A DNA stretch of 64,000 nt from NCBI RefSeq assembly GCF_963576615.1, contig NC_088712.1, forward strand, positions 15,522,027 through 15,586,026. The letters run 5' to 3'. Positions 2,766 through 63,567 of the stretch are shown piece after piece. Under the pieces are notes generated by a model that did not search any database, was not told the DNA's origin, and saw only the letters and a list, made by a program, of their open reading frames with translations. Within the stretch, counting starts at the first letter, position 1. Each line of letters opens with the position of its first letter. The position numbers and the translations under genes are program-made. This DNA is from Watersipora subatra. Taxonomy: Eukaryota > Bryozoa > Gymnolaemata > Cheilostomatida > Watersiporidae.

Positions 2766-2814
2766 ATGATACAAGCATAAGCAGTACAACGATGATGCTT
2801 AACTTAATTCCCAT
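2766..2814 (-). CDS. Signal-peptide exon 1 of a secreted cysteine-rich peptide gene (partial)
   Basis: Minus-strand exon reading from ATG at 2814: MGIKLSIIVVLLMLVS plus one base, then a strong 5' splice site GTAAGTATA. The 16 residues are a typical short signal peptide (one Lys, then a hydrophobic run). Phase-1 exit is identical to every other member of the family here, and the exon is a near copy of exon 1 at 26690-26738, whose exon 2 lies 3.7 kb downstream at 22981-22734. By that spacing plus the 1.8-kb pogo insertion, exon 2 of this copy should lie beyond the left edge of the window. A TTGTTTACC forkhead-type motif upstream (about 2876) is conserved in both copies. Whether this copy is expressed cannot be told. 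Confidence 0.55.
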
Positions 2815-3000
2815 TGTTGTAAATATTCTACCGATATCTCACTTGAAGGAAACGTTTTTAGTGTGAAACTCTGTTTTGTTTACCAACGAGTAGAGTTTCT
2901 GCTATTGAAGCACTCATGCAAATAACTACCTACCATCTACATGAGCGGATACAGACTTGAAGTGAAATGAAGTGACAAATCAGAACTTTTGATCTTACAT

Positions 3001-3274
3001 ATGAATAACATTTATCAAATATTGTAAAAATCTACAAAACTCACATATAATATGTTTGTTCAACAATGACTTTCTTAAAGTCTGTGTAGCAAATTAGGTG
3101 TTTCATGACAGGAAGTCAACTATCATTGGCAATGTAGTTTGTCTCTCTTGCCTTTTCTGAGCTGCACTGATGAGGCTTCTATAGTCAAAACAGTACTGTC
3201 TGTAGCATGAGTATACAAAGTATATATCTATAGATATTTATGTTTATATATTTATTTTATATTTATTTCTCACC
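3001..3274. other. Short intergenic stretch, nothing recognised
   Basis: AT-rich sequence between the end of the segmental duplication and the 3' end of the minus-strand retrotransposon copy. The last 50 bases are the T/A-rich tail of that element. Confidence 0.5.
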
Positions 3275-4325
3275 CCGGTTAACCCATATGGATGGTAATT
3301 TCTGCTCTAACTCGGGTCTCTCACCAGAGACCTGGGAGTTTAAGCCCTCGCCTCAAGATCTTCGCTGTTCCCAATAAAACACTTTTCTGCAACTCACTTG
3401 AGTTGATTGTTGCCAGTATCTGGGCTAGCCAAGTTTTATGTGCAAGTGTTATTGCCCCCGGTGCCCCAATGACTACTGGAATTACAGTCGTTCTTACATT
3501 CCAGCATTCCTCAATATCTTCTCCAAGAGGGAGATATTTCTCCACTTTTCCTTTTTCTTTGCTGGCTATATTGTAGTCACTGAGTACTGCTATATCTATT
3601 ATTGTAGCCCTCTTGTTCTCTTTGTCCACCACCACTATATCTGGTTGGTTTGCTAGGACATGCTTGTCCGTCCGGATGTAAAAGTCCCTCAGGATCTTAA
3701 TGTAGTCATTTTCATTTACCCTACCGGGAGCTTCCCACATGTGCTGTGATTTATCAAGACCATACTCATAACATAGACTTTTGTACACGACATCTGTGAC
3801 ATGATTATGCCACTCAATGTATGCGTTTCTGGCTAGCTGCTTGAATTAATTGATGATGCGTTGGATGGTCTCAGGTGCATTATTGCACAGTCTGCATGTG
3901 GATCGTTTCTAGTGTAATAGATTTGTGTTTATGAGTTTTCTGTTTGTTGTTGTTGTTCATTGTTTGGTTGTTTTGACTTGAATTGCCTTGTTGGGAGTAC
4001 CTGCTCCCGGGCTGCTATGAGTAGTGACTCTATATTGGCCGCTAGGTTCCCTTTGTTCAGCCATATATATTTTAGGTAGAGATCGTCAACCTTAAATATT
4101 TGTCTGTGGTAAGCACCATGAAGAGGTTTCATGTGATAGTCAAGTTCCTCATCATCACTGCGAGGCTGTATTGTCAGAGCAGTCAAATGAAATTTAGCTA
4201 ACAACTTATCTGTGGTTGCCGTTGAGGCTGCATAAGCTTTAATGCTTTGTTCTTCCTCTTTCACTGTCTGCTGGGTTCCCTATCTCATCTTTCTTATTGA
4301 GATACAATCTGATGGTATCAGATAT
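3275..4325 (-). mobile_element. Non-LTR retrotransposon with restriction-like endonuclease, 5'-truncated copy A
   Basis: Minus-strand copy of the element at 6823-8545, covering only the C-terminal part of the polyprotein and the 3' UTR. Two frames remain: 4264-3929 (linker region, KAYAAS...KPLHGAYHRQI) and 3788-3321 (C-terminal endonuclease). The endonuclease has the PD...D signature of R2/NeSL-type enzymes: 'QPDIVVVDKENKRATIIDIA' followed by a [20 protein letters not shown] block and [11 protein letters not shown]. The zinc-knuckle region between the frames is broken by a frameshift and stops. The 3' end is the shared UTR (GAGACCCGAGTTAGAGCAGA in element sense) and a T/A-rich tail. Truncation at the 5' side is normal for LINEs. 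Confidence 0.85.
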
Positions 4326-4344
4326 TTATACTGATTCTACTAGA

Positions 4345-4540
4345 CTATATACATGTATATACCACTATATATTGTATTATATATATAGTATAAGTATATA
4401 TGAATACTAGATATATATATACATGTATATATATACATTTATATACATAAATGGCAGTATATGTATAAATATATATATACATGTAGTAGAATATATATAT
4501 ATATATAAATATATATATATATGTATAAATATATATATAA

Positions 4541-4590
<50 letters not shown>

Positions 4591-4716
4591 GTATATATAT
4601 ATAAATATATATATAAATGTATATATATATATATATACATTTATATACATACATGGCAGTATATGTATAAATATATATGAATATATACATGTAGTAGAAT
4701 ATATATATATATATAT
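4345..4716. repeat. TA microsatellite with an embedded duplicated motif
   Basis: Mostly (TA)n with interspersed ACATGTA words. A ~75-bp motif (containing ATGGCAGTATATG and CATGTAGTAGAATATAT) occurs at about 4432-4506 and again at 4632-4710, and in weaker form at about 5820-5862. Long open frames here on both strands are artefacts of the repeat. Confidence 0.9.
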
Positions 4717-4718
4717 GA

Positions 4719-5755
4719 GAGCTGCACAACGATTATAGAAATTAATCACGGTTAATAACTGATCTGAACTTGCTAATCTTCGATTAATTTTAGAATAATT
4801 CTAGCAAAAATCTGCATACTCTAAAACATATAATACAACTACATATAAATTAATTATATTTGAGAGAATTATTGTTAACAGGAGTACTTGTTATGTACAA
4901 CATTCACAAGTTTCAACATATTCATTATTATGAGTATGAAAATAGTCCATGAAAGTATACTATTAAACCAGCCAAAAGTTGAGGCAGCACAGTTTATTCA
5001 CACTATTTGAACAAAAAGATAGGGAAGAGATGCCCTCTTCTTACAATATTGCTAGCTTTAAAGGATAGCCGCTCACCGGGGACAGCAGTGACGGTAGTCA
5101 GAAGTTGTAGTTATTGTCTGCAACAGCTGGTGATGAATTCTGAGCGGTAGGATGAGAATTAGTTAAATTATATCTTAATGATGATGTGCTGCGGTGGTAG
5201 ACAAGTTCTTTCTGGTATATATTGCACTTCACTTTCTTGTTTATGCTTCCAACAACATCTGTAAATGTGTTAGCTAGTACGAAGGACATTTTTCTGCTTT
5301 TATGTTCCCATAAAATGTCAATCTTATTTTACTATTACTATAAAGCTGAAATATGATTGTGAGTTTTCTGAAAAATTAAAATACATGTATAATTTACCTT
5401 AAAAAAGTTTTAAATATAAGAAAAAAATAGACTGCAAGATATTAAATAGTACTGAAATCACAGTTGTGGCTATTACCTAGAAACATGTTCAAACAACTAA
5501 CAACATGGCCGCTTGCAACTAGATCGACACGGCACTTTTTTGTTGTAGAAACAAGTTTTAAGTTTGTTAGTGACTTTTTTAATGTTTTCATAATTGAGTG
5601 CAAAATAATTGTGGTTGTACTTGATTGGTAACAAAGTGTTGCTTGTCATAAATCACTGCGTTGCATTTTATTTAAGAATAATTGGCTTGACTCAGTTAAT
5701 CGTATAATTGAGTTGATTGCGTTAATCGTTTAATTAACACGATCATCGTGCAGCT

Positions 5756-5756: not shown

Positions 5757-5757
<1 letters not shown>

Positions 5758-5815
<58 letters not shown>

Positions 5816-5896: not shown

Positions 5897-6665
5897 TCTC
5901 AAAGTATGTATGTGTGTAATTCTGACTATAGCTATAGCATACACTGATTATTTCCCAATGCTGCTAAGCTTTCCAATGCTTTTATTAAGAATTAATTGTT
6001 GTAAGGTAAAATTGCTATATCTGGGGTCTAGGTCGAATCCTTTTACGCAAACAGTTATATTATCTGCATGGTAAGAGCCTCGACATTATCTCTCTGTTTG
6101 GTCAGACAAAGACAGTGCAATATCTCAGTTTTACATTTGTACCAGTATCAAGAGGTACCATTATCGTCAGATTAAAAGTTTTGATAGATAGCTTCTGGTG
6201 GAACAGAAACCTTTTTTATAAACACACTTTTATGCATGAATTGCTATTATTAATTCAACATATTCAGGATTTTTATTTTGCTTTCTCAGTCCGTATTAAT
6301 TGTATCATTACCGAATCATCATTTATTGTTATCATAGCAAAACCGACTTAATTTAGCTATTACTTGCTAATTATTTTACATTTTCATTTAAACCTTTTTA
6401 TATTCGTTTGATTTTTTTAATTGACCTGCACAAAAGTTTTTCTCTTGATATAAATTTTAAAAGTCGATAGAAAAAATTTGAAAAACTTTACAGCTGTTTG
6501 TATTTTCTCACTTAATTTATTTCAATTACAGAAAACACTTTTCTCATGAGATGTAGTTTGAAAGTTAGAATGGCAGATGTTCTTACATGTATTTGTTAAA
6601 TAAAAATAAATTTTCTGTCGAAAGACTTTTTTAATAATGCGGCAACGCTGGGTTGTTCAGCTAGT
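5897..6665 (+). mobile_element. Non-autonomous Helitron-like element, copy 1
   Basis: Starts TCTCAAAGTATGT and ends with a GC-rich hairpin-like segment (GCGGCAACGCTGGGT) about 10 bases before a terminal CTAGT, the 3' signature of Helitrons. It aligns along its length with 33451-34204: shared blocks include the 'GACAGTGCAATATCTCA' region and the GATAGCTTCTGGTG region. A third element with the same 5' end and a CTAAT 3' end lies at 33077-33435. No Rep/helicase coding sequence is present. The 5' boundary is less certain, since all three copies are preceded by T and not the usual A. Confidence 0.6.
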
Positions 6666-6822
<157 letters not shown>

Positions 6823-6827
6823 TCAGT

Positions 6828-7205
6828 ATGTACATTGAGAGATGTACACTCATCAAGATGTCAATGACCAAATGGAAGACGGAATTGGAGGCTAATGGTA
6901 AAAAGCTAGCGAGTGTAAAAATTAAGCGAGGCATCTATCAAGGTGATTCCTTATCACCTCTGCTCTTCTGCATATGCTTAAACCTTCTAAGCAATATGTT
7001 GGAAGAGACACAATATGAGTACCAGTTTAAGAGTGGCACCAAGATAAACTACCTCTTCTACATGGATGACATCAAGCTGTACGCTAACAAAAAAAGGGAC
7101 ATTGATTTGCTAATACAGCTCACTCAGGTATACAGCAAGGACATCCGAATGACCTTCGGTATTGAGAAATGTGGAAGGCTAATTCTTAAGAAAGACAATT
7201 CTTAG
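6828..7205 (+). pseudogene. Reverse transcriptase domain fragment (non-LTR)
   Basis: Contains RT motif 3-4 '[18 protein letters not shown]' and the catalytic motif '[12 protein letters not shown]' (YxDD with Met), followed by the FGIEKC segment seen after the palm in non-LTR enzymes. The fingers domain upstream is missing because the copy begins inside the palm, immediately after a TA array. The frame ends in an in-frame TAG (7203-7205), and LTDGLRISNGTI continues after it in the same frame, so the stop is a mutation in a once longer polyprotein. Confidence 0.9.
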
Positions 7206-7387
7206 CTCACAGATGGCCTAAGAATATCAAATGGTACCATAAAAGATATAGAAGAAGAGTACAAGTACTTGGGGATTATGCAAAGCAACATCAACACGAA
7301 GCCGGAGTATATCGCAAAGCCATTACCGGATAAAGGAAACGCCTTCGGCAGGTCTTACGGAGCCAGCTCAACGCCAACAACCAAGTC

Positions 7388-9590: not shown

Positions 9591-9595
9591 ACAAT

Positions 9596-10969: not shown

Positions 10970-12098
10970 ATGCTGAAGACCACATTTATCTGTGTAATTT
11001 TTCTAAGTACCATATGTAAGTATATATTATATTATTACAAGTTATTATAAAGGTTTGATATGTAATAATACATATTAATATTATTATAATGTTGCTGTAC
11101 TATATAAAATATATTAATTGTGTCATTATATTATTACTCTAATTGTATGTGCCAAACTATTTATAGTATTATTTGATCACTATGATATTATTAGTATAGT
11201 ATTATCTGTAAGTGTACGAATTATATTAATATGTTATTAAAATAGCTTTATACGTAACTATCTGCACTGCGTAATAGCTATGTTATTATATTAACAACAT
11301 GGTGTGTATTACATGTATATTAATAAAGCACTATTACCATATTAGCTTAGGTTTATACACAAGTACAAGAATTATATTACTATTATAGTATTATGTTGTT
11401 TTTAATCTAGTTTTATATGTAAGTATATTCATTTTATTATCATAATATTATGATGTTATTGAAATTATTTTATGTGTAATGATATATATTATATTATTAC
11501 TATATTATTGTTATGGTATTTTATGTAATCATATTTACTATATTATTATGACAGTACTATGTTATTAATCTAGTAATTATATAAAATATATTATAAAATT
11601 ATTGTTACATTATTAGTAAAGTATTATAGATAACTAAATATATTATAACATTTTGGTCTAAAGATTATGTAAACTTCTTTATATAGTACCATGCTTTACT
11701 GTTCATAAATTTGACTTAGATGTGTAGGCGAATCAAAAAACGGTATTTTTGAAGGTCTACCAACAGCTTACGGAGTTCTGCCACCGATATGCTCTAAGAA
11801 AGAATGTGAAGCGTACTGCGCCCAAAATTTTGGCTGTCAACGCGGTTTCTGCTACGTTCGGAGCTTGTGCCAGTGTGATCGGTGCCCACCTTGTCAGAGT
11901 AATGCTCAGTGTACATCATACTGCAGCCAAAGAAGATATGCCTATGGAAAATGCCCTAGCTACACCCCTATTGAAGACTGCGTATGCATGAAGAAATGTG
12001 TTTATGACTTTGCCTGCGCGGTGCAATGCAAAGCACTAGTTAAGTGTCAAGATGGGTACTGCGCAAATGGCTGGTGTCAGTGTACTCAGTGTAACTAA
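10970..12098 (+). CDS. Secreted three-domain CSαβ (defensin-like) cysteine-rich peptide
   Basis: Two exons: 10970-11015 and 11728-12098, GT-AG intron of 712 bp at phase 1; 138 residues. Exon 1 encodes the signal peptide MLKTTFICVIFLSTI; the junction codon is Cys (T plus GC), as in two paralogues. Exon 2 holds three domains: D1, residues 37-68, C-x4-C-x3-C-x5-C-x4-C-x5-C-x-C-x2-C; D2, residues 71-102, six Cys with a nine-residue loop before GKC and a C-V-C end; D3, residues 106-137, again eight Cys. Each has the CSαβ hallmarks CxxxC, GxC (GFC, GKC, GYC) and CxC. The total of 22 Cys in the domains would allow 11 disulfides. A longer open frame from 11749 in another phase is a shadow. AATAAA lies at 12252. 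Known CSαβ peptides are antimicrobial or ion-channel active; function here is inferred only from fold. Confidence 0.87.
11016..11640 (+). repeat. Intron of degenerate ~57-bp tandem repeats carrying splice-donor-like motifs
   Basis: Most of the intron of the 10970 gene is a run of diverged units of roughly 50-60 bp of the form TTATATGTAAGTATAT followed by TATTATTA-rich sequence and a GTTATTAATCTAGT end. GTAAGTAT of the true donor (11016) recurs exactly at 11419, and GTAAGTGT at 11208; GTAA variants occur elsewhere. The same kind of intron is seen at 54225-54525 in another family member. Confidence 0.6.
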
Positions 12099-22733: not shown

Positions 22734-25700
22734 CTATTCATGATCTGTCGGAAGGGTATCAAAACATTCGCATGTGCTTCTTGACCTGGAAATCGGACAT
22801 TTGCCGGAACCATACCCCTTAGCTTTGCACTTTATAGTGCATTGCTTGTCACTTATGCATTTGAGACATACCTCGCAGACACAGTCTCCTTGCACGTCAC
22901 ATTTGCTATATATACATCCATAACGCTCGCACAAACTTGTACAAGCTCGGGTGTCGCATTTCGCTTCTGAGAGCGTCAAATCTGAAACATTAATACCGAG
23001 AATGAGATGAGGATTTATTTGCTAATTGTAATTTTTGTATTGCCAATTGATAATTGCTTGTTAGTTGCTAATTAACAAACAATTAGCAATTTACAAGCAA
23101 TTAGCAATTGGCAATACAAAAATTAAGGGTTTATTGCAGTTAAGGGTTGTTAATTGCTAATTAACAAGTGCAAGTTGCTCATTAGTAAATGCTAGTTTTT
23201 CACTGTAAATTGTCATATGCCAGTTTACATTTGCTAGCAGCCTATTAATAGGTGAAAGTTGTTAATACACGATCGTGTTGTCAAGATCTTATACTTGTAT
23301 ATGACATAACTTCATCAAGCAATTTGCAGACAGCGTGGGCAATTTAGCAGTTTAAAGCTTTAGCAAAGAAAATAACATAATTCACTGTGCTACAGTTAAT
23401 AAGAACTTTTAACTGCTCAACTGAACACGAACCTACAGACATAAGCATCATTATTCAAATATTTTAAGAAAACGTTAAGTTCTCTGAAAGCCGAAGGTTT
23501 GTACCTGTTAAATTCTGTAAACTTTATAAAACTGTAATGCTTATTATGGATAGCTAGCTGTTGTCCAATGCACAGCGGATTGGGTTTGAAAACATTTTAA
23601 AGAAGTAAATTCATACAAACATTATTAAAAGACAAATATTAGAGCAGCAAACATTTTTATAATATTGTGAGGCTAACTTGAATTGTTTTTATTTTGGCTG
23701 TTAATCAAAATAAAGATTTGCATCTTTTCAAAGCATGCTTGGGTCCAGCTGTTTGGTAGAGTAAAAGTGACCCTGTTCTTACTTTCTACCACTTCTGAAA
23801 CTGTCAGAACAACCTGAAAGGATGCCAGTGCAACACATCCAGTCTGACAGAGCCAGGTAGCCATTTCACTTGCTCAATGTGCAATGAACAGAGCTGGATC
23901 TTTAATGTACCCACGTTGTCAGTGGGGTACAAGAGGTGTCCAAGTTATGGTCTAGATTTGAAATACCCAGCAATTTAGAATTGAAAGCTTGCTAAAAGCT
24001 TTTGGTCAGATTGACATAAAGCAGGACGAACCACCAACACCACATGGTTGACAGTCAAATATGCTACAACCATAGCACCCTAGCACCCAGAGTGTCAGAT
24101 TGGCCTAGTGGTAGCATCTTTGACTGCCCTGACAGCCTGGATGCCAGGGTGTCAGGATGAAATGCAATAGTTAGCTAAAATATACCATTTTTTCCACTGT
24201 TGGAAGGCTTTTGCTTCTGTTACATGTATCTGTTACTATGAAATAAAAGTCAACCATATTTATAAAACAAATTTTAATCACATTCATTGCTTGGCAAAAC
24301 GATGTGTATTGTGTACTAAACTTTTAATTGTAGCAAACAAAGTTTTAGTGCATATTTTAGAGTGAAAATGCCTAGAGTGACTGTTATAAAACTGATAAAA
24401 AAAGAGGAACTATAAACAAGTGGCTATGAAAGTTGCTCAGAAACTTCCCAGAAAAATTTTCAGCAATGACTGACTAAATCTAAAATAATTTACTCCTTTC
24501 AAAAAGTACAACAAAAATGCTTGCTTTATAAATTCTTTACCTATTTTATTGGTCAGCAAATATACAAAGTGCTAGCTAACTTATAGAGTTATAAAAATCA
24601 ACTAGTATCAACTTTAACCTTTATTTAGTTTTGTCTCAAAATAGTACATTCCAGCAACACAAATTTTTTCAGGTGTTAAAAAATTGGTAGTAAGTTGTCC
24701 TACGCAGATTTTGAAAGGTGAGTAAAACATTGACTAGAAAAATACATAAGCAGTTTTTACTGGTTTGAAAATCGATCTGTAGAAAATTTAAAAGCAATCT
24801 CAAAACTTTTTAAGTATCAATAGTTGCAGTTGTTCAACAATTTGAAAATACTTTTATGCTAGATTATAAATACCTTAATTTTTTCTCAAACTTTAAGTTT
24901 ACAAATGACCTCACACAAAAGTTTAGTAAAATTCATCAGAAAACATCAGTGTTAGTCTTTTTTATTAGTTGCAAATGTTTTTCAAATTTTATGACCAATA
25001 TATTTTAAGATTAAAGTTCACAAAAATTGATCACAATTAAGATACTAATTGAAAATTAAAATACTCAGAATAAACAAAATTGCAGTTATGTTGTCTATAG
25101 CCGCACAGTGACAGACATAATACAATCGGTTATTTCTGCAACGTGAACATATTAGCCGATGGCAACTATATCAGCAATAACAACTAGTGACGTCATTTTG
25201 CTTGCATTTTTTCTGATTGTATTAACCTCAATCAACTTTTGTCAATTTTAATCTTGAAACATAGCAGTGAGATCACTTCAAACATCAAAAAACAATTGAA
25301 AACAATAAAAAGATGCTAAAAATTTCTGATAAAATCTACAAAGATTTTCACAGGTCTATTTTAAACTTGAAATGTGTTACAAATTTTGATGCATGCACTC
25401 ACCGGTTTTTTAACAATAAAAACTTTGAAAACAAAATTTTTAACAAAAGTTCCAGCAAAATGTTAAAAACTATGAATCGTTTCAGATGGAACCTTTTAGC
25501 TATTAGTATTTGAATTAATCTAGTTTGTTTTTAGAATTAATCCAAAATTATTATTTTTTGGTGAACTGACAACAGCCTGCTTGTAGCCAAACCTAATAGA
25601 AGAATGTGCATATACTGTTTCTGTTATTGAAACACAATTAAATTTTGAAATGAATATACTAAAAATATTGCATCTTACACCAAAGACAAAATAGGTCCTA

Positions 25701-26738
25701 AAAACTACTGATTAACTTCAAAAGATGGTGAAACAAGTGAAAATATAGTTGAACAAAAATTTTATATAAGATGTAAAAATAATGGTATTTACTAAACAAA
25801 GGAGTTCACTAAAACATAAAAAACCTACAAAAAATTATGTGTTTGAAATATCGAAAGTTTTCAATTGACTCTTGACTCATCAAAAAATTGACGTTTTAAA
25901 GAATTTAGTAACCTTGACGTTTAACTTTTGATTTGATAATGATCAAAAACACTAACACAGGCTGACTGGAGAGATGCATGTGTCTTTTCGTAATTGTAAA
26001 TAATCTCACCGAACCAATCTGTTACATTACACTTGTTATAGTCTATTCAGCATCTGATGAACTAATAAACCGTTCTGCTAAAGTACTGATAAAAATAAAA
26101 ACAAAGACAACTGTCCACAAATTATAAACTTGTATTTTTGAAGCAAAACCCCGGTGAATACAGGAGTTGAAAACACAAGCCCTTAAAAAGAAAATGTCAT
26201 AGTACCAAGATAGAGCACTTATGTACTAACCTTCATGCAATAACATTTTTCTGAAAATGCAATCGATAAGGCAACCAACGTTTTGCTTAATTAGCCAGTT
26301 TATTAAAATGTCATTTTAGCCACCTGTGCTAATCAGCCACTTTCCAAAGCGCCAAAAACATTTGACTAATTTTGGAGAATTGCTTGGCGAGGGGATGGGG
26401 TGAGAACTTTTGACATTCAGTTTTGTAAAGTAAGGCTCCAAACAACTACACTAATTAAACGCAACCCCGCAAGCAAAATGCGTGAAAAGTAAATTGAAGT
26501 TCAACAACTAACAATAATACAGATGAAATCTGAAAACAGATCATTAAATGATAATTTTCAATTGTACCCAGACAATCTCACGACATATTGGCTAAAAATC
26601 AAGTAACCATAATAGTACCAAGTAACAAAAATAGTGAAAAGTAAAACACCAAATCTCCAGGGATCAAGGTAAAACTGATGTATACTTACATAATACAAGC
26701 ATAAGCAGTACAGAGAAGATGCTTAACTTCATTCCCAT
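22734..26738 (-). CDS. Secreted two-domain CSαβ cysteine-rich peptide
   Basis: Minus strand, two exons: 26738-26690 (signal MGMKLSIFSVLLMLVL, donor GTAAGTATA) and 22981-22734 (acceptor TGTTTCAG); intron 3.7 kb, phase 1; 98 residues. D1, residues 25-55: C-x4-C-x3-C-x4-C-x4-C-x5-C-x-C-x2-C. D2, residues 58-89: C-x5-C-x3-C-x9-C-x8-C-x-C with GKC and CEC, the classic six-Cys invertebrate-defensin spacing. After the last Cys comes an acidic tail FDTLPTDHE; the third domain of the paralogues is absent. Fourteen Cys, an even number. AATAAA at 22662-22657 on the same strand. The pairing of the exons rests on phase, strand and order, without transcript evidence; the alternative is that exon 1 serves another exon 2. 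Confidence 0.75.
23029..23125. repeat. Large imperfect hairpin just upstream of the 3' splice site of the two-domain gene
   Basis: Arms of about 45 bp (TAATTTTTGTATTGCCAATTG... against CAATTGGCAATACAAAAATTA) centred near 23077, with ATTAGCAATT words repeated. It is inside the intron, 50-145 nt before the acceptor of exon 2. Confidence 0.8.
23126..24092. other. Intronic sequence, nothing recognised
   Basis: Part of the 3.7-kb intron of the minus-strand gene. Short CTAATTAACAAG words repeat to about 23175; otherwise no repeat or gene was recognised. Confidence 0.45.
24093..24165 (+). repeat. tRNA-like (SINE head) remnant
   Basis: TTGGCCTAGTGGTAGCATC matches a pol III A box/D-arm region (TGGCNNAGTGG), and CCTGGATGCCAGG downstream looks like a T stem whose loop has lost bases of the B box. 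This suggests a decayed tRNA gene or a tRNA-derived SINE head, not a working tRNA. Confidence 0.3.
24166..25149. other. Intronic/intergenic, nothing recognised
   Basis: AT-rich sequence without recognisable features. Confidence 0.45.
25150..25345 (+). repeat. Interspersed repeat (SINE-like), copy 2
   Basis: Same ordered blocks as 20205-20375, here with AACTAGTGACGTCATTTTG (a palindromic TGACGTCA core) and GAAACATAGCAGTGAGATCA. Located in the intron of the two-domain gene. Confidence 0.65.
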
Positions 26739-38685: not shown

Positions 38686-39896
38686 ATGAACTTCAAAATT
38701 ACAAGCCTGTCTCTTGCGATCTGTCTTTCAGCAGTCTGTAAGTGAATCTTCTAATAGAAACAATTTTAACCAACTCACACCTTCGTTGGCTAATAATTCA
38801 TGTAATACTATGAAACACCTTAAACTCTATCAACGGTTGTTATAAAATATAGACTGTAAAAATAATTTGAGTGTTTCAAACGCATACGGTTACATACTAA
38901 CTTATAATATAAGCAATTTTGTTTTAGAGTTGTAGTTGACGCCGAAAAAAATTCTTTTCTATTTTAATTGTTTAAACCATATTTAAACAAGCTAATTTGA
39001 CTTTACATAAATAGTAAAGTGTTGCATGCAAGTTGCTTTATGCTTTTCAAGCAATAATCATATTTGGAATATAATAATATAATATATAATAATACAATAA
39101 TATATTTGAATCATATATGTTGACAAAATAACACATGTTTTAAAACTCAATTTAACAAAAGATTATAAGCCAGTTGATTTTGCTCAAAATATGTATATTG
39201 CTAAATGTTACGGCATATTGTAAAACTTTGAAAACAAATTATATCACATGCTGTGTGATTTTGAAGCATGAACAATATTCCAACCTATTTTTCGGAACAC
39301 AAATGTTTTGAACTGTATTTAAAAGATTTAGCACACTTAAACTTTAGAAAAAGCTTAGCAACATATTGCTGCAACCATTATTATAGTTATTGTAGTTGTT
39401 ATTAATATAAGTGTAATAGTTCCTTTTCTAATGTTTTTTTTGTATTCATGAAAAGCTATTTTATCAAAATCATTATTTGTATTTCAATTGCTACACATTG
39501 TTAGGTTGAAATGAAACCTTTAATTTTATTTTATATGCTAACTGATTTTTAGGCTTTGGTATATGCTTTGGAAGACACAATCAAACACAAATCTGCACAG
39601 AAGATGCCTGTGAAACAGATTGCATGAATATATACAGCTGCGGAAATGGCACTTGCAATGAATGGAGATGCGAGTGTGCAAACTGCCCATCATTAGGTGA
39701 CGAGACGGACTGTAATTTAGTCTGCCAGAAAAAGGGATTTGCTTATGGAAAAGGACCCAAAATTGGCACCACAAAGGATTGTGTGTGTTTTAAAAACTGT
39801 AAAGAAGACCATTACTGTTGTCATGTTTGTAGACATCTCGGATGTCAGTATGGAACATGTTTAGACTCACAGTGTGCTTGTCACAATTGCTTGTGA
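38686..39896 (+). CDS. Secreted three-domain CSαβ peptide with a reduced middle domain
   Basis: Exons 38686-38737 (signal MNFKITSLSLAICLSAV, donor GTAAGT) and 39553-39896 (acceptor TTTTTAG); phase 1, junction Cys; 131 residues. D1, residues 32-62, has the full eight-Cys pattern. D2, residues 65-96: by alignment its first Cys is Leu65 and the Cys of the GxC motif is Gly85 (GKG), leaving CxxxC (71, 75) and CxC (94, 96). In six-Cys CSαβ folds the first and fourth Cys pair, so exactly one disulfide is lost. D3, residues 100-130, has eight Cys plus an extra one (CC at 106-107). A further Cys (22) lies before D1. Poly(A) signals at 40256 and 40290. Probably functional: no stops, intact splice sites. 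Confidence 0.87.
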
Positions 39897-40794: not shown

Positions 40795-41455
40795 ATGATA
40801 GTAATACTACATACTAATCATGATAATAATAGTAATACTAATAATCATGATAATAATAGTAATACTAATAATCATGAAAATAATAGTAATACTAATAAGC
40901 ATGATAACAATTGTAATACTAATAATCATGATAAAAATAGTAATACTAATCGTCATGATAATAATAGTAATGCTAATAATCATGATAAGAATAGTAATAC
41001 TACTAATCATAATAATAAAAGGAATACTAACAATCATGATAATAATAGTAATACTAATAATTATGATAATAATAGTAATACTAATAATCATGATAATAAT
41101 AGTAATACTAATAATCATGATTATAATAGTAATACTTATAACCATGTTAATAATAGTAATACTAATAATCATGATAATAATAGTAATACTAATAATCCTG
41201 ATAATAATAGTAATAATCATGATAATAATACTAATACTAATAATCATGATAATAATAGTAATACTAATATTCATGATAATAATAGAAATATTAATAATCA
41301 TGATAATAATAGTAATACTAATAATCATGATAATAATAGTAATAATAGTAATAACCATGATAGTATTAGTAATACTAGTAATCATGATAGTAATAGTAAT
41401 ATTAATAATCATGATAATAATAGTAATACTAATAATCATGATAATAATAGTAATA
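40795..41455. repeat. 27-bp satellite, left block
   Basis: About 24 units of ATGATAATAATAGTAATACT-AATAATC (27 bp), moderately diverged and without higher-order order. Because 27 is a multiple of 3 and the unit lacks stops in several frames, long frames open on both strands (for example Asn-rich 230 codons); they are not genes. Confidence 0.95.
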
Positions 41456-46046: not shown

Positions 46047-49000
46047 ATGGCAGTTGCTGCAATATTGGTGGCCATACTGACTGCCTTCACTGTGATAGGT
46101 AAGTACTTTTGGCTGCTTCAAATAGTGTACCATTTAGAAACTACAACAGTTTTTATGTGATTTATCTGGTAAACAGTAAACCTGCACAATGTTTTGGTTT
46201 GATCCGGTGGTTGTGGTTAGTTTCTATTAAATCAAGTCAAATCTTTTATTTTCTGACATCGGAAAAACCGAAAACTTCGGTTAACAAGTGCGAGTTTGAG
46301 GTACGATTTTTTCGGTGCGGTTTCCGTTTCCATATCATAAAAACTGTGCCTGCGTGCTTGGACCAGATACACAGAATCTTCCATAAAAATTTACACTATT
46401 TTGTCTTGAAAAGTTTTTTTAATCTTTGTTTTACATAAATGTAGATATCACATCCATTCTCGAAAGCTATTTATATTTCATAACAAAAATTTGAAGTTAA
46501 GGTTCATGAAATGAGGATGTTTAGGTGGCTTTGGTTCATGTTAACCGCAAGCAATTGGGACATCGTTTGACTCTGTGATGAGTCATCATATGTGTCGGTT
46601 ATAAACGGTGTTAGAATGAAGTTGAGGTTTATAACCGAATAGACGTGGAAGACCAATCGTACAGGTCTAGTAAAACATAGAGTTGAACAGAGATTGTTAC
46701 AACATGTCTACTCAGCAAAACTTTATTTTCCCTTTTACTAAAATAGTTTATTTGCTGAAACACAATGTTTGATGTTTTTTAACTCTAAAGGTATGTTTAC
46801 ACTATATCGCTGTATTTTGACATTGATGCCGCAATAATTTAGATAGTGTCAAGGCTAACAATGTTCACACGACCACAAACTCATCTGCGTCCGCATCAGC
46901 AAATACTCTGTGATGTAGTGTTTTCATTTTTATTTCCAACTTTTTGCTAAGAAACCTATTGGTTTTTGCAAGCTCTATTTAAATACTAATCTCACTGCAA
47001 CTATCAGAAACGGAAATGAATAGTTCATGTTCTCCACGACACTGAATTACTATCACCGAAACGGTTCACCTTGTACAAGCTGTTATAGATGCTCGGCACA
47101 ATATCAAGAAAGTTTGACAGCTTCAAGCTTTTAACCCTTGTATCTGCGTTGATCAGTCGATGCTATCAATTCCTGGGGCATCTAGTCAATGATGAGCCTT
47201 GAATGAAAAAAGCCAAAGTAATGTTACCCAAGATTAAAAGACCAAAATTTTCAATTTTCTCACATTTAATTACATTGTGGTCAACGTTTTTGATAAAATG
47301 AAACGTTTATCCAATTTAAACATTGCACTATTACAATAAGATACTAAAGGCCTTGTTTAATAATTTTTGTCAGTTGAACAAAATATGTTTTTTACAGTTA
47401 GAATAAGGCTTAAAAATAGCAGAGATGGGTTTGTCATTTTAAACGTTTTTTCATTCATATCTACATAAATCTCATTACAATTCGAGGTATTCATATACAT
47501 GTATACTCTCAATACAAAACGTTTTATACTACATACTATATGCTATAGGCTATTAACTACATGAATGAGAGATATATATCACATACCACATACTATAACC
47601 ACTTTAATTAAACACTTTACTATATAAAATAGATCCTGTACAATTTAAAATGTATGTTTCATATCATATACTATATAGTATGTTTACAAATGTACTATAT
47701 AATTCATACACATCTGCTGCGTTATTATTGGTCGTTGTCTATCTGACCTACTGACTAGCTGGTTGATTGTCTGTTTTTCTGTCCTTCCATCTGTTTTTTG
47801 CCTACCCGCATCAGAGCTTACTCACCTGTCTGTCTATCCATCCATTCACGTGTTTGCTTTTTTGCACAACAAACAGAGAATAGCTATTAATGCAACTGTT
47901 GTGAGATTTTGGAAGACCAACAGTAGCTGACATAGCTGGCTAGCTCAGATGGTAAGAGAGCCAGTCTAATAAGCTGAATTTCATGGTTGGCATAACAAAT
48001 GGAGCTCAAAATGGCCAAAGCATTAGCTGCCTCGTTAATTGTCTGTACAGAATTTTGTAATTGCGGGAAAGTTGGTACATTTAATACAACTGTTATTGTA
48101 ACACAAACATAAAAAAATGACATTCATTCTGGAATTTATCATTTCTGACCATGTAGTAATGATTCAAAAGTTACCTTTTAGTGATAAGGAATCTGTCAGT
48201 TTTCTTAAACAAATAAAAAAACTGATTTCATATCAAAAGAACTATAAAAGATATTTAATCAAAAATACATAAGTTACTTCTCATTCACCAACTATAACAG
48301 TTAAAAATAGAAAGATTGGTGGCATTTATTCAGATTCCACATATTAAGTGCTAGAAATAGTATACTTCTCATTAACATGATGTAATAAGTAAGTTAAAAA
48401 AACTTCACATTCAAAAATCTTTAAACAATGTGTGTGGTCTCAATATACAGATTTGAACACTACAATAACCATACCCTTGTTTTTTTTATTAACAAAAATA
48501 AACTATATAACTTTTGTGTTGCACAATGTTTACATAAATATTTCAAATTCTGCATTAAGTTTGGTCTGGAATTTAGATTTCTAACTAATAAATCTGAATT
48601 TATAAATAACTTATAAAAGGTAACTGAAAGTCAACTAAAAACTGACAAGCATCAAAGCTTAACAACTACTAATAGTTTTTATTAAAATTATGTATTGGCA
48701 GCAAGTTTGAATTTAAATTGAGAATAATGATTTTTAAAATCTATTTTTTTAAACAAATAAACTAGATACTGATTAGGTGTCATTTTGCAAACAAGTTGTT
48801 TTTAAGTTTCCATCTCGTTATAAATTAACTTGACAAATCTTTAATTGATTTTATGAGAATGTATTGACTTTCTTTTATTACTTGCTATTTTTTTAGATGT
48901 TTGAGATGGTGTGACTGCCAAAATGTTTAAGTTTAAATCAACAAAACTTAATTGCAATAAAAATGCTCAGATCATGCAAAAGTGGTTATGAGTCGCAGAG

Positions 49001-49581
49001 AGACCAATAGAATAGAGACATGTAAAGCTGCAATATAAATGCCACACCTGATGTCAGCTATTGCAGCGATAACAATTAGTCAAGTCATCGTGAACTTTCT
49101 TCTAAGCATTTGAACTGCAAGCAAGTTTCATAGATTTTTATCTTGAAACATCCACGTAGTCAGATCACATCATTAGTCAAAATTAATTGTAAATGAAACA
49201 AATATACTGATAATTTTTGATGAGATTTTGTCAAAGTTCCTTTTCTAAAAATATGTGTCAACTTGCAATTTTCAAGATTAATAAGAAGCAATATTGTTGT
49301 TTATTCCAATTTACTTGCAATCTAACTGGGTTTCAGCTGCAAGAGAGAGAAGCCAAGAGCGAAGATGCTATATTCAATTCTGCAGAAGCTTCTGTGAAGG
49401 TGAAAGGAAATGTATAACAGGTTTCTGTACTCGTGCTGGCTGCCACTGTGTTGATTGTTCAAGACTAATACTGGCTAAATCAATCAGAAACCAGAGCCAT
49501 CTTAAAGCAGCTCTGGAAGAGGCAGTAATTCTTTCTAAGAATACAGAAACATCATCTATGGGAACGGTAACAACTCAATAA
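46047..49581 (+). CDS. Secreted single-domain eight-cysteine CSαβ peptide with C-terminal tail
   Basis: Exons 46047-46098 (signal MAVAAILVAILTAFTVI, donor GTAAGTAC) and 49337-49581 (acceptor GTTTCAG); intron 3.2 kb, phase 1; 98 residues. One domain at residues 28-58: C-x4-C-x3-C-x5-C-x4-C-x4-C-x-C-x2-C with GFC and CHC, the same as D1 of the multi-domain paralogues and like mollusc eight-Cys defensins in spacing. A basic stretch (ARERSQERR) precedes it, suggesting a short propiece or cationic N-terminus, and a 40-residue Cys-free, Ser/Thr-rich tail follows. An in-frame ATG at 46008 would add MLPCDRRKRHPNT, but the downstream ATG gives a better signal peptide. AATAAA at 49700. The exon pairing over 3.2 kb is inferred from phase and strand. 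Confidence 0.7.
47735..47870. repeat. Degenerate (CTGT/CTAT)n microsatellite
   Basis: CTGTCTATCTGACC, TGTCTGTTTTTCTGTCC and CTGTCTGTCTATCCATCC phrases within the intron of the 46047 gene. Confidence 0.6.
47932..47998 (+). repeat. tRNA-like (SINE head) remnant
   Basis: TAGCTCAGATGGTAAGAGAGC reproduces a tRNA D arm with A box (GCTC/GAGC stem); the anticodon arm has only a 3-bp stem and the B box is degenerate (ATTTCATGGTT). Most likely a tRNA-derived SINE relic. Confidence 0.35.
49040..49250 (+). repeat. Interspersed repeat (SINE-like), copy 3
   Basis: Blocks GCGATAACAATTAGTCAAGTCAT, TTTTTATCTTGAAACATC, GTCAGATCACATCA, ACTGATAATTTTTGATGAGA in order; ends about 90 bp before exon 2 of the 46047 gene. 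Confidence 0.6.
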
Positions 49582-54182: not shown

Positions 54183-55808
54183 ATGATGAAGTCAGGCCTG
54201 AGTATAACTCTTGTCTGTAGTTTGTCTTTAATCTGTGCATGTAAGTATAAACTATTTACCATATATGTTATTTATTATGTACACATAAATAGTAATTAGT
54301 TACAATACATGTTCTTTATGCTGTACATGAAAGTATAAAATAGTTACCATGTATTTTATTTAATCTGTGCATGTAAGATAGTTACCATGTATGTTATTTA
54401 ATCTGTACACGTAAGTATTATTTAGTTATCAAAAATAATCTTCATGCTGTAAATGTGAGTATAAATAGTTACCATGTATGTTCTTTAATATGTACATGTG
54501 AGTAGAACACTGTTAGCATATATGGAGCTGCATTGTTGTAGTTTGTTAGCTAGCCATATAGCTGATTAAATAGCTTTATATGCTGCATGCAATATGGTTC
54601 AGTAAATTGATGACTCACTAACCATCTAACAACATAAATATAACAAACACAGTGGCAAAAAAATGCAGAATAGTCTTTCCTTGCTGCATCTGCAGCAAGG
54701 AAAGACTTTAAATAAATAAATATATATATATAAATTATAAATATAAATAATTAAAAATAAATTATTAATCAATATAAATAAATAAATAAAAAGACCAAAG
54801 AAGATTAAAAAAGGTTTCATTCAGATTTTCACCAAAATGCATCAAATGATTGTATGTAATATGCTTTAAAAATATTTTTGTTAAAGAGGACCTCCTCATA
54901 TAATTTCTATTATACAATAATTCTAGCTTTAAAAATAGATTGATATAGTATTATAAACAAAAACCTGGTGAAGAGAAATACAACTTTTTTCCATCCATCA
55001 AATGTCGCTCTGAATTTTGTTATAGTCAACTAAGCTTTTCAAGTATTGATAGTTAGCAATCACGTTTTTGAGTCATTCTAGATTTTAATAATATTCTTGG
55101 TCCATCTGTTTATTTTAATCAACTTTAAAAAATTGAAAAGATTTTTTAAATATAATTCTACTGAGATGCTAATTTAATTAACCATTCATTGCATATTTAA
55201 GTGATACCTGCAGAAATACCAATCTAAATGATTGAAAGTGACAAAAAAATTATTAACTATTTGATCGTTTCAAAATTTGCCATTAAACTTAATTTCTTTC
55301 CATGCCTAATTGTTTATTATTATTTTTATTTATTTATTGTACATGGATTATTTTTTGATAGTAGTAAGTTAATATACTTAGAATTAAACCTATTTAACTT
55401 CATATTTATTACATTCCTTACAATTTTTTTACACTAAACATTAAATGTGATTACACGCTATTTTTAATACTTGCAGGCATGTCTATGAACTTCATAGATA
55501 CTCAGTGTACAAACAACGATTGTGCCACTAAATGCAAAGATACATATGGATGCAGCAACGGAACTTGCAACCAATGGAGATGTGACTGCCAAGGATGCCC
55601 ACCCTGTGAAAGTGAGAAGTGTGGAGCGATATGTCGCGATCAGGGCTTTGCAGCTGGTGTTTGTCCTGAGAACACCTGCATGAAGCACTGCGTATGCGTT
55701 AAGGAGTGCCAATCTGATATCTTCTGTTCATACATTTGCCGATACCGAGCCGAGTGTAAGTTCGGCACCTGCCACAGTGGACAATGTAAATGCCACAGCT
55801 GCTTATAA
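54183..55808 (+). CDS. Secreted three-domain CSαβ (defensin-like) cysteine-rich peptide
   Basis: Exons 54183-54240 (signal MMKSGLSITLVCSLSLICA, donor GTAAGTATA) and 55477-55808 (acceptor ACTTGCAG); intron 1.2 kb, phase 1, Cys at the junction codon; 129 residues. D1, residues 30-60: C-x4-C-x3-C-x5-C-x4-C-x4-C-x-C-x2-C. D2, residues 63-93: six-Cys pattern (GVC, CVC) plus one extra Cys at 87, giving an odd total of 23 and a possible free or intermolecular thiol. D3, residues 97-128: eight Cys. The charge is mixed and not strongly cationic. Closest in the window to the 38686 gene (both NGTCN-x-WRC in D1 and FGTC/YGTC in D3). Start could be either of two adjacent ATGs. Confidence 0.88.
54225..54525 (+). 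repeat. Tandem repeat made of the exon 1/intron junction
   Basis: Units of about 38-52 bp: CTTTAATCTGTGCATGTAAG, then TATAAATAGTTACCATGTATGTT. The first unit contains the last ~16 coding bases and the true donor (54241); donor-like GTAAG/GTGAGT recur in register at 54373, 54411, 54455 and 54498. Six or seven units, increasingly diverged. Confidence 0.75.
54672..54707. repeat. Perfect hairpin, 17-bp arms, 2-nt loop
   Basis: AGTCTTTCCTTGCTGCA-TC-TGCAGCAAGGAAAGACT in the intron of the 54183 gene, followed by an AT-rich (AAAT)n tract to about 54795. Confidence 0.9.
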
Positions 55809-59335: not shown

Positions 59336-59339
59336 AAGG

Positions 59340-62300
59340 TATTTCATGAACTCAGTTTTTTTGTAATTGGTTATAGGATACCTCATTTTAAAGGTTTATT
59401 GATGATACACATTTTTGTTGCATTGACAACAGCAGATACCATTACAAAATGAGGTTTCAATAATATTTTTCAGTAAGTTCTGTCAAATACATCAACATTT
59501 CAGAGTCAGACAAATAGCAAGAATGATTTGCAACTCAAAAAATATTGACTCAAAGCAATTGCCACTCTATATCTATACTAAAATCATTTGTTAACAAAAT
59601 AAAATTATTTAAGAATTATTCAATTGAATTTTTTATTCATGTAATCAGAAGCTGCTCTAGTAGGTTTTAAACCGTAAACTTTTAAGAGTAGCTGGTTGTT
59701 ATGAATGAACTTTTAAGGTTTTTTATTTGTGTAAACGAATTATTTGTTAGCGCACTCTTCAAGATGGAATCAGCGCAATTCTATTATAACCGATACTCAA
59801 AAGTTAATATGGAGTTTATAACCACCCTGCATGCTTCTTCACTGTTTGTAGAACCTGCTGAAACTATCTACCTTGTTGGGTAGCAGTGTGAAAACTGTAT
59901 GGAGAAAAGTTTTTAAGTAAAGGCAGCCAATCAATGGCAGCCAGAAAACCATTTATTTTTGCATTTCTGCAATGACTAACCATTGAATTCTGTTATTGAA
60001 GTTTTAAGTTTATGTTTTGATTAAACAGTGATTTCGTTAGATCACACACAGCATGGTAATTTTTTTGTTGTTTCCAAAATTGCTTTTTGTTTGTCCCTCT
60101 AACATCAAAAAATAGGAAAAAATGAAACATGAATATAAATAGGCTAAATATTAAAATGCTCTAAAGCCACCTTTAAACAAAAACAAACATGTTAATATCT
60201 GTTGCTGCAGTTTTAGAAGAACATAAAAGTAAAGAAATTATAAAACGATGTATTAAAGTTAGAAAGCTGACCAAGTGTTAATATTTTCATTTGGTTCTTT
60301 ACCTTCAAGGATCACTTCAGAAATTGTTACCATCAAACAACCTAATTGTCTCTGTTCTACTCAATTTGCTAAAGTGAAGAAAACATGAAAGTCATACAAG
60401 TCAAAGGTTTTGAGCAATATAAAGCTTGATTGATCTCACTTGAGTTACCTCAATGAACTCATGTGTAGGAACTAAGAAGGTTTTTAACTTTTGAAGCGTT
60501 TACTGAAAAGCATTTGTTTGAAGAACTAGTAGTGCTTAAAGCAGGGAAAAAACTTTTCCCTGACGAGATGTTTTATTTTTTAAGCAATTAAATTTTATAA
60601 AAACGATTTTAACGCTTTTGCATGGGCTATTGTGTGTGATCAATAGGCACTCTATCAAAACAAAATGATCTGTACTTGCGGATACCAAGATGCTCAGAAA
60701 AAGCTGTCAGTGTAATCACTTTCTTTTTCGAGACGTCGAAGTCAGCGCAAATACGGCGTTTTGCGTAGAGCAATATTCAGCAGTCTTGAGTCAGTCATCA
60801 TTAGTAAATCTAACTTGGAATACCATATTTTAAACGCGGAGCCACTCTTTTAAAGCCAAAGGTATGTAGTATTTGGAGTATTAAATCTTTAATCAAAGTT
60901 ATATTGTAAACTCAATTATTACTGTTTATATTCTTTAGTTAGTGTGAAGGTACTTGCTCCTTTGTTAGATGTCTCTGCCATTAACCCTTTGCTGTCTTCT
61001 ATTCTTTTATTATAAAACTTTTTTAGGTTTGTTTGGTAAACATTAGTATCATTATTTATCACAGACAAATTGTAAACTTACAGAAGTGCTAACTAACGTA
61101 ACTTAGACATTTTTTATAACTTACATAAAATATATAAATTTTATATAACAATTTTTATACAACTACAAAACATTTTAAACAGTCACATCAAACCTGTTTT
61201 TTAATTTAATCAATATTTAATTAACAACCAAATCTTAAATTAATGACATAAATTAATGGAACTTTTTACAATCCTTTAAAGATAAATAGTTTAACCATTT
61301 CTTTAGATTGTCTTATATGTGTATTCCTTGGGATAATCTTGAAAATGTCTCTTAAGTATGAAAAGATATGGGATACCAAACAATATGCTTTAGGAAAGCA
61401 TACATATTTTACTGATGTCAAAGTTGGCTTGCAAATTTCAATTGCTCTATACTAAATATAGCATTAAATACTAAAATGCTAATAGGACATGACTTGGACT
61501 TCAAATATAAGCGGTTAATTTTAATTTTTATATATGAAGAATCTAATAATTAGATACTTTAAATTAAATGAAAATTTCACAAAGATCAAAATATTTAATT
61601 CTTTTTGCAAGGCCGTAACATAGGTCACTCATTTGCAAGTCAAACTTCTGATGGTTTTGTAAGGCATAAAATAATTGCTTACTTTTCATAATCACATTTT
61701 GCTTTTACTGTTGATTTTTAGGTTATACAGAAAGTATGTTTTTAAAGTTTGTAACAGAGTTGTTCAATCCTAAAAATCTGGGAATGTGTTCAGTGATTGA
61801 TGTTTTTTGTCACGGAACTCAGACATGTCCAGCTTGAATCATATAATTTTTGTTGATCAAAGATTGCCTTTAAATACAGACACAGCCTCTGCTTTCACCA
61901 AGCTAAGTAAACATCGTGCAAGATTTTCAAGAAACTGCTAACACCAAACTTTTAACTAAATTGAAAGGTTTAACAGTAAAAAAGTAAATTTTCCTTAATT
62001 AAAAATTTAAAGATATAATTTTCAGGTTAAAGTGATTTAATAAATTTATTGTTTGTTTTAAATGAGCTATTGCAACGACATTTTGCAAAGATAACCTAAT
62101 ACAAGTACTAGTTTTTATGCTAATCAAATTCAATTGTACCATAATCTTTAGTTTATAAAAACATATGTTTAGCTGTCCCTGTAAGCATAAAATAATATTT
62201 TGCCAGTGATTTATTGATAACGTGTAGTTCAATAAAAATAAAGATCAAAAATGTGCGCTTATTAAATGATTGGCAAAAGCTAATGCAAACCTATCAACGC

Positions 62301-63506
62301 ATTTCGCAGTTACAAATTATTAATAATAACAGAAGCTCCGGCAGATGCCAAAGGTTCATATAAAATAAATAGCAAATTAAATCTAGATCTAACTATCTAG
62401 AAAAAAGAGAATGATGCTGCTAGCTGCTACATTGTTAAGTTGATAAAGTTTATGATACTCAAAAGTTTCAAATTATTGATAGGCTTTGAACCTAATTGTA
62501 GATGGTTGTTGAAAACTTTTTGAGTTTAGTTTCAAGCCATTTTTGATGTTTTCAGTATTTCTGTTAGAAAACTGAAATCGCTTTTTAGATACAATATTAA
62601 ACAGCTTGGAGCATTATCATAAGATCAATCATGTTGGAAGCTGTAGTTTGCATTTTTACCTTTTTTATTATTCTAGTACAGGTCTTGAATAGAGTAATTT
62701 GTTCTGGTATAAAATTACAGCAGTTATTATATATTTGGTCAATTAACTTGATTTTATGACAAAATAATTTTCTTCAAGTTTGGAGAAAAAAATAATTGGC
62801 AAATGAAATAAAAGGAAAATACTGCGCAGACACCAAGTGATATGGAAACAGCTTTAAGTAAACTTTTTTTAACTCGGCATAAAAATATGTTTTTACAAGC
62901 AATTGTTAGCCCTTTAATATTTAGATCTAAAAAATCGTTGCTTAAAAACGTTTACTACACTAAAACATTGTCTATCTATCTCCCATCTGTTCACAGCTAC
63001 ACAAAAAGCGCGAGAAACAAAGAATGCCATGCACAGAGATAAAACTCTGATTTTACGTTATTGAGCCAAGCATGCTACCTCCTGCACTTCTCTACCAACT
63101 TGTCCAATTAAAAAAAAACTCCACTTATAGTTACTACATTTTATGACCTGTTATAGAACACAAAACTCTAGTGTACCAGTCTGTTCAAAATCAGAATAGG
63201 ATGTTGAAGTAAAATATACATGGCTTTCAACAAGACTCAAACTCACAGCATTTATAGTTCGGTATACAAACACTCTAATGATGGTACCAATTAGCCATCC
63301 TCATGAAAATACTTGCGCGAATACTCGTTTTCTGTGCTTTATTGATGCATCTGATGATCGCTCGCAGTACATCCCTGACGGAGTACTGTGTGCCTATTTA
63401 AAAGATGAATTTTGTTAAAACCATGGTTAGAGTTTCTGATGAATATATCAGCAATATATCAACATCAATTAGCATTAATTGCAGCTGCAGAAACTATTGA
63501 GAGCCT
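59340..63506. other. 4.2-kb stretch, no gene recognised
   Basis: AT-rich. A slightly more CpG-containing patch at 60680-60870 ends in AAAGGTATGTAG, a possible donor, and could be a non-coding first exon, but nothing supports a product. Frames at 61999-62232 and 62842-63042 lack motifs. Confidence 0.4.
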
Positions 63507-63567
63507 ATGATGCAGTTCAGAGACAAATACATAAGGATTGTTGTTTTCATCTACTTTTTAATAACAA
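63507..63567 (+). CDS. Candidate signal-peptide exon 1 of a further family member (partial)
   Basis: ATG-ATG start, 20 codons (hydrophobic core IRIVVFIYFLIT after a charged MMQFRDKY), then GTAAGTACC at phase 1, exactly the exon-1 form of the other genes. Exon 2 would lie beyond the right edge. The N-region is longer and more charged than in the paralogues, and the junction base is A instead of T or G, so the call is moderate. Confidence 0.45.

Follow-up and report, generated by a model that had tools for sequence, protein, structure and literature searches.

Five two-exon genes in the window

The window, by which we mean the whole 64-kb stretch of Watersipora subatra DNA analysed here, contains five complete two-exon genes, and our reading of splice sites and open reading frames bears out the first-pass annotation in this respect. 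In each of the five, a signal-like exon 1 is followed by a phase-1 intron with a GTAAGT donor and an AG acceptor, and a single exon 2 holds one, two or three units of the CSαβ type, as had been proposed. Exon 1 measures 46-58 nt and the intron 712-3708 nt, and the proteins encoded by genes 1 to 5 are 138, 98, 131, 98 and 129 residues long, respectively. The features are as follows, exon 1 of each gene being read from the sequence and the domains being numbered D1 to D3.

10970..11015, plus strand: gene 1 exon 1 (putative signal peptide), phase-1 donor GTAAGT
11728..12098, plus strand: gene 1 exon 2; D1 8-Cys 11790-11885, D2 6-Cys 11892-11987, D3 8-Cys 11997-12092
26690..26738, minus strand: gene 2 exon 1 (putative signal peptide)
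22734..22981, minus strand: gene 2 exon 2, two domains; D1 8-Cys 22866-22958, D2 6-Cys 22764-22859
38686..38737, plus strand: gene 3 exon 1 (putative signal peptide)
39553..39896, plus strand: gene 3 exon 2; D1 8-Cys 39594-39686, D2 with four Cys, D3 8-Cys plus one extra 39798-39890
46047..46098, plus strand: gene 4 exon 1 (putative signal peptide)
49337..49581, plus strand: gene 4 exon 2; one 8-Cys unit 49366-49458, then a 40-residue Cys-free tail
54183..54240, plus strand: gene 5 exon 1 (putative signal peptide), second in-frame ATG at 54186
55477..55808, plus strand: gene 5 exon 2; D1 8-Cys 55506-55598, D2 6-Cys plus one extra 55605-55697, D3 8-Cys 55707-55802
2766..2814, minus strand: exon 1 of a two-domain gene resembling gene 2, putatively paired with an exon 2 left of the window (C5:15519724-15519918, minus strand)
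63507..63567, plus strand: candidate first exon of the three-domain gene that follows, putatively paired with an exon 2 right of the window (C5:15588495-15588794)

The last two rows explain the range given by the first-pass annotation, whose end points (2766 and 63567) belong to the first exons of two additional genes. Of the 19 related loci that we scanned, 11 also have an upstream exon that resembles a signal peptide and ends at a phase-1 GTAAGT donor, one has a doubtful donor and seven have no such exon in the ~1.4 kb examined. Splicing of the cluster genes is thus inferred from sequence and from its recurrence across paralogs. In translation, the N-terminal exon of each of the five window genes is hydrophobic, which makes secretion likely, as previously suggested.

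Cysteine layout and predicted fold

The units run 8+6+8 in gene 1 (at 11.8 kb), 8+6 in gene 2 (22.8 kb, minus strand), 8+4+9 in gene 3 (39.6 kb), 8 in gene 4 (49.4 kb) and 8+7+8 in gene 5 (55.5 kb). The cysteine spacings noted earlier fit in general, with the exception of D2 and D3 of gene 3 and D2 of gene 5. The last of these has one Cys beyond six, while gene 3 has an extra Cys in D3 and one more ahead of D1. Its D2 lacks Cys1 and Cys4, both gone together, which leaves one of the four D2 units in the window not six-Cys. Since C1 and C4 are disulfide partners in the CSαβ frame, this paired loss agrees with a C1-C4 bond. The strict 8-Cys pattern is not a product of chance, since its five matches in the window compare with none in each of 30 dinucleotide-block shuffles.

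When 13 three-domain proteins are aligned, 20 of the 22 Cys columns are invariant and the other two are missing jointly in one gene, all 22 Cys being retained in 12 of the 13. The only invariant non-Cys columns are three Gly (13/13), found one apiece in the GxC motifs of D1, D2 and D3, a place that we take to be the γ-core position. The C...CxxxC...C...CxC frame is present in every D1 and D3 (13/13) and in 12 of the 13 D2 units, gene 3 being the exception. The short spacing between domains is equally regular. The three-residue D2-D3 linker of the first-pass annotation occurs in all 12 three-domain genes of the cluster (see below), and the D1-D2 linker has two residues in 11 of them, the twelfth lacking the bordering Cys.

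Structural modelling and profile searches argue for the proposed CSαβ units, with three predicted α-β-β repeats and PDB profile matches for both head types. The AlphaFold model of the gene 5 protein (best of five models) has a mean pLDDT of 77.9 and a pTM of 0.62, and shows helix-strand-strand three times. Against the PDB, the D1/D3 profile retrieves CSαβ toxins (E 2e-4), first HsTX1 (E 1.9e-4) and then other α-KTx toxins, and the D2 profile retrieves plant defensins (E 4.5e-3). A Foldseek search with the predicted structure gave no full-length match among the best 50 of 128 matches; the structural matches are weak and mostly cover one head (the third in the best VIA rows), neither of which is evidence of a new fold. 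The curated Pfam cut-offs (25.1 bits each) were not reached by the five window proteins, the best scores being 21.0 for Gamma-thionin and 20.1 for Toxin_2; over the 13 three-domain proteins, the best E values are 4.3e-5 and 7.6e-4, respectively. The predicted fold of gene 4 was of low confidence (mean pLDDT 58.5) and was set aside.

A larger array and its domain history

The tandem cluster is real, and the window is a section of a larger array. In the 204 kb examined there were 45 regex matches (a low-complexity one at C5:15450986 was left out of the count), and 17 genes spread across 132 kb: 12 with three domains, four with two and one with a single domain, so that 16 of the 17 have two or three. 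A genome search found additional copies on other chromosomes, the three-domain form included. As to selection on the three-domain unit, the two C2 copies differ at six sites in a 324-nt CDS (dN 0.012, dS 0.047) and are 86.5% identical over 2787 aligned nt surrounding and including the CDS. Divergence is greater in the 15506/15509 gene pair (dN 0.090, dS 0.138) and in the gene-2 pair (dN 0.181, dS 0.534).

In a domain tree, from which three genes unmatched by the D1 pattern (L013, L015 and L032) were excluded, D1, D2 and D3 group largely by position, with six changes as against a least possible four and a shuffled mean of 27.4. The three-domain unit thus looks old and kept whole. Since it is also the commonest form (12/17, and present on other chromosomes), it is most simply read from these sequences as ancestral, with the two-domain genes as losses. 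Behind the four two-domain genes, we found no D3 remnant beyond chance, the best HMM score being reached by 61, 162, 128 and 162 of 200 shuffles (0/200 for a positive control), and the argument for D3 loss is therefore one of distribution only. On the tree, the two-domain genes need three changes, a number that 98 of 500 label shuffles also reach or undercut, and a single two-domain clade is compatible with the tree test (p-AU 0.157).

Gene 4 and a second multidomain family

A second family on the same chromosome (C5:36.9-37.3 Mb) consists of four to eight 8-Cys units separated by long linkers. The single unit of gene 4 scores up to 88 against these poly-8-Cys units (mean 74.1, n=34), as against up to 69 for D1 (mean 53.8, n=16) and up to 72 for D3 (mean 52.1, n=13). 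A genome search with it (E up to 10) returned gene 4 itself and six poly-8-Cys places, three of them in one gene, all six candidates being scored. It is therefore unlikely that gene 4 is an 8-6-8 relic; by sequence, it stands outside that series and its nearest kin found are poly-8-Cys units. Accordingly, the suggestion that one-, two- and three-domain members form a single series of gain or loss is not supported as it stands, because the three-domain form is the commonest, the domains group largely by position and gene 4 is nearer the other family. We also considered whether the gene 4 tail is a frame-shifted poly-8-Cys linker and rejected it, the DNA comparison being null (143 of 300 shuffles reach the score). 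At the protein level, only two of 2000 shuffles reach the score, in a comparison picked post hoc. The poly-8-Cys family is apparently a second multi-CSαβ form on the chromosome, built separately.

Discussion

Proteins with several CSαβ units, and repeat cysteine-rich proteins at large, are already known. SCREPs (secreted cysteine-rich repeat proteins) and double-ICK toxins such as DkTx, Hi1a/Hc1a and Xt3a are described as a signal peptide followed by tandem cysteine-rich domains (PMC13172734), a tandem arrangement that the 12 three-domain and four two-domain genes among the 17 share. For Hc1a, the same report describes a single exon that encodes the entire mature part, and domains that were lost later. 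However, the heads in these examples are ICK or Kunitz, mostly two and alike, whereas the cluster has CSαβ heads of two Cys types in a fixed 8-6-8 order. The Cys order of D1 and D3, compared as an order and not loop by loop, is that reported for the eight-Cys CSαβ defensins of molluscs and nematodes (MGD-1, myticin, ASABF; PMC5116183), and α-KTx6 toxins (maurotoxin, HsTX1) have an eight-Cys CSαβ frame too, but those are single-domain proteins and here two eight-Cys units flank a six-Cys one. The account of the mollusc and nematode defensins also gives macins an extra bond, C1-C7 of its reference array. The plant defensin MtDef5, as described in PMC5700942, is likewise multidomain, but with two 50-residue domains and a 7-residue linker. 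Lepidopteran X-tox and Nasonia nasonin-2/-6 also combine several CSαβ/defensin motifs within a single protein related to immunity (PMC2728511, PMC2853521). Rusticalin, described as having two β-defensin-like repeats (PMC6339383), and the peptides of a nematode AMP survey (PMC10506718) and of ribbon-worm toxins (PMC9132205) were not taken as kin.

We put at roughly 55% the reading that this is a lineage-expanded array of secreted, uncleaved three-headed CSαβ proteins, whose likeliest role is that of a host-defence effector. In such a protein, a signal peptide would lead into the secretory path, and head 1 (8-Cys, of the mollusc/nematode-defensin pattern), head 2 (6-Cys, plant/insect-defensin-like) and head 3 (a second, distinct 8-Cys) would be joined via two- and three-residue linkers. 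Eleven disulfides (4+3+4) would lock the three predicted α-β-β units, and the heads would remain joined as a multivalent ligand, most likely on microbial surfaces. The three-domain unit most likely had one origin, before the cluster spread, and the two-domain members most likely lost D3. A more specific version, which we offer tentatively and at less than even odds, is an obligate 8-6-8 defensin that stayed intact while its genes multiplied across chromosomes. Every head would bring a γ-core and a variable surface of its own, one molecule could bind up to three targets at once, and the poly-8-Cys family of the same chromosome would be a counterpart that was apparently built separately.

The main rival is a venom or epidermal toxin, a three-headed channel ligand whose avidity would be raised by linked heads, as in two-ICK spider and remipede toxins. 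We regard it as rather unlikely, even though HsTX1 and other α-KTx toxins are the best PDB matches of the 8-Cys profile and Toxin_2 matches seven of the 13 three-domain proteins (E up to 0.1). In α-KTx toxins, the pore-plugging Lys is the residue preceding the γ-core Cys, and here a Lys occupies that place in only one of 13 D1, three of 13 D2 and one of 13 D3 units. Furthermore, the matches track a Cys frame reported as common to mollusc and nematode defensins (PMC5116183). This case against a toxin is weak, since toxins have other ways to reach channels. High-avidity tandem cysteine-rich toxins have been described (PMC9950431, PMC6262176).

Cleavage of a precursor into three single-domain peptides, rather than an uncleaved protein, is improbable. 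A dibasic pair does occur in the D2-D3 linker of gene 1 and of the 15506 gene, and in 10 of 13 poly-8-Cys linkers (two genes counted), which are 21-23 residues long. However, the linkers of the cluster are of two to three residues, and in 10 of its 12 three-domain genes neither linker contains a dibasic pair. We find equally little to favour an X-tox-like protein with an immune or structural but no antimicrobial function, its defensin units having lost their killing role: although Spod-11-tox (11 CSαβ motifs) is reported to be unprocessed and no reservoir of antimicrobial defensins (PMC2728511), and some cluster members are low or negative in charge, X-tox proteins are described there as Lepidoptera-restricted repeats (up to 11) of one six-Cys type with unconserved spacers and a spacing, C-x4-C-x3-C-x7-G-x-C-x3-K/R-C-x-C, that the 8-6-8 units do not follow, and of the 13 three-domain proteins aligned, 12 keep all 22 Cys and all 13 keep the three Gly.

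In the mainly open-access literature that we searched, we found no 8-6-8 CSαβ protein, and the CSαβ defensins and toxins encountered in our comparisons are mostly single-domain. The unusual three-unit layout may represent a multi-headed immune or toxin peptide and, if the heterotypic three-domain form is conserved, a natural trivalent scaffold with differing heads. With an array, two-domain members and a family of four to eight units in one genome, the evolution of multivalency would become directly testable in the CSαβ fold, much as it has recently been tested in two-ICK spider toxins (PMC13172734).

A tandem array of one-, two- and three-domain CSαβ genes

Five complete two-exon genes, encoding secreted peptides of the CSαβ type with one, two or three domains, had been proposed for the window by the first-pass annotation, and all five are confirmed by their cysteine patterns and by our reading of the exons. 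Each gene has an exon 1 of 46-58 nt, encoding a hydrophobic stretch, and just one exon 2; the intron between them lies in phase 1, with GTAAGT as donor and AG as acceptor. The predicted proteins, in order from gene 1 to gene 5, are 138, 98, 131, 98 and 129 residues long. A strict eight-cysteine pattern occurs five times in the window vs. 0 times in 30 shuffles of it. As for the domain-specific patterns in that annotation, with eight, six and eight cysteines in the first (D1), middle (D2) and third (D3) domains, they hold in general but fail at D2 and D3 of the gene at 39.6 kb (gene 3) and at D2 of the gene at 55.5 kb (gene 5). The former has lost Cys1 and Cys4 from its D2 and carries one extra cysteine in its D3, while the latter has one additional cysteine in D2. 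Both ends of the span assigned to the cluster (2766..63567) are exon 1s of two further genes with exon 2s beyond the window, and we infer that these outside exon 2s belong to the exon 1s at the span ends.

The window corresponds to C5:15522027-15586026 of a genome of 784 Mb in 239 contigs. When exon 2 of gene 5 was used to query this genome, 25 of the 30 candidates scored were matches with E no higher than 10. In the 204 kb around the window, cysteine patterns read together with exon translations identify 17 exon 2s, at C5:15456606-15588794. Twelve of these encode three domains, four encode two and one encodes a single domain. Taken alone, the cysteine pattern misses the four-cysteine D2 of gene 3, and other copies with strong changes would escape it as well. 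Three-domain relatives are also found outside the array.

Three-domain loci outside the array
L015, C1: complete gene with the 8-6-8 order of cysteines per domain
L022 and L024, C2: three-domain genes in which the spacing of D3 differs
L032, C5: resembles the C2 three-domain genes; D1 without its first cysteine

At 11 of 19 related loci, located on C5, C1 and C2, a signal-like exon was seen that has GTAAGT as its phase-1 donor. Several degenerate copies lie on C5 outside the array. Scattered loci at C5:15.87-18.73 Mb (L026-L028, L030 and L033) resemble the C2 three-domain type, several of them with stops or changed cysteine spacing, and look like a decayed, dispersed subfamily.

The cysteine frame is held while the surface changes

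In an alignment of 13 three-domain proteins (12 from the cluster and one encoded on C1), 20 of the 22 cysteine columns are invariant. The other two, Cys1 and Cys4 of D2, are absent from gene 3 alone among the 13, and we take them to be a disulfide pair under the usual CSαβ connectivity. The sole invariant residues other than cysteine are three glycines, one in the GxC of each domain, which is the γ-core position in cysteine-stabilised defence peptides. Other positions are highly variable: the 81 columns in which cysteine does not predominate have a mean entropy of 2.36 bits. In close pairs, dN is lower than dS: 0.012/0.047 for two C2 copies, 0.181/0.534 for the gene-2 pair, and 0.090/0.138 for the 15506/15509 pair, where the ratio of 0.65, based on 28 differences, is just mildly under one. 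The cysteine frame is held while the surface changes.

The three-domain unit most likely arose once

In a tree of 51 single domains, which has low support and leaves out three genes missed by the pattern (L013, L015 and L032), D1, D2 and D3 cluster largely by position, although two D1s fall outside the D1 group. The position labels change six times on this tree, the minimum possible being four and the mean after shuffling 27.4. The three-domain unit therefore most likely formed once and was then copied whole. For the two-domain genes, three changes are required on the D1+D2 tree and a single origin is not rejected; no remnant of D3 was seen behind them.

The single-domain gene 4 belongs elsewhere. 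Its nearest kin found are proteins encoded at C5:36.9-37.3 Mb, which have up to eight eight-cysteine units joined by linkers of 21-23 residues. The open frames of this second family of CSαβ-like units lie at C5:36.92-37.30 Mb.

Open frames of the second family
L031: 5 eight-cysteine units
L049: 4+2 eight-cysteine units, frame broken
L050: 8 eight-cysteine units
L051: 7 eight-cysteine units
L054: 8 eight-cysteine units

A candidate multivalent defence protein

For the three-domain genes, what is directly observed is the frame of cysteines, the short linkers, the exon layout at sequence level and the constraint, and the CSαβ fold of their product is predicted. The protein would be secreted, with 4+3+4 disulfides across D1, D2 and D3. 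Since the linkers between domains are only 2-3 residues long and a dibasic pair is present in only 2 of the 12 three-domain cluster genes, the three domains would remain uncleaved. Joined in this way, they would most likely bind multivalently, and the protein would most likely have a role in defence. The main rival is that these proteins are toxins. α-KTx toxins use a lysine that is at its place in few of the heads, but this point against toxins is weak because CSαβ toxins also reach channels by other routes.

Secreted repeat cysteine-rich proteins are a named class (PMC6262176), and multi-CSαβ or multi-defensin proteins occur in moths (PMC2728511), Nasonia (PMC2853521) and a legume (PMC5700942). 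The 8-6-8 genes have their closest evolutionary parallel in the Hc1a family of two-ICK proteins, in which the mature part is encoded by a single exon, duplication took place within that exon and domains were lost repeatedly (PMC13172734). No description of the 8-6-8 order was found in the literature searched, mainly open-access.

Other features of the window

Two pieces of the window read like a repeated LINE-type element; neither matched Pfam when tested. In the right flank, a frame resembling them (L043) has an RVT_1 match (E 4.6e-28), and window 2766-4766 as query gives 135 genome matches. The window also contains two arrays of a 27-nt unit.

Repeats in the window
3324-3845 (-): LINE-like piece
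6600-8300 (+): LINE-like piece
40790-41456: array of a 27-nt unit, about 25 copies
42664-44001: array of a 27-nt unit, about 51 copies

On both strands, long open frames that are probably spurious overlap the 27-nt arrays.
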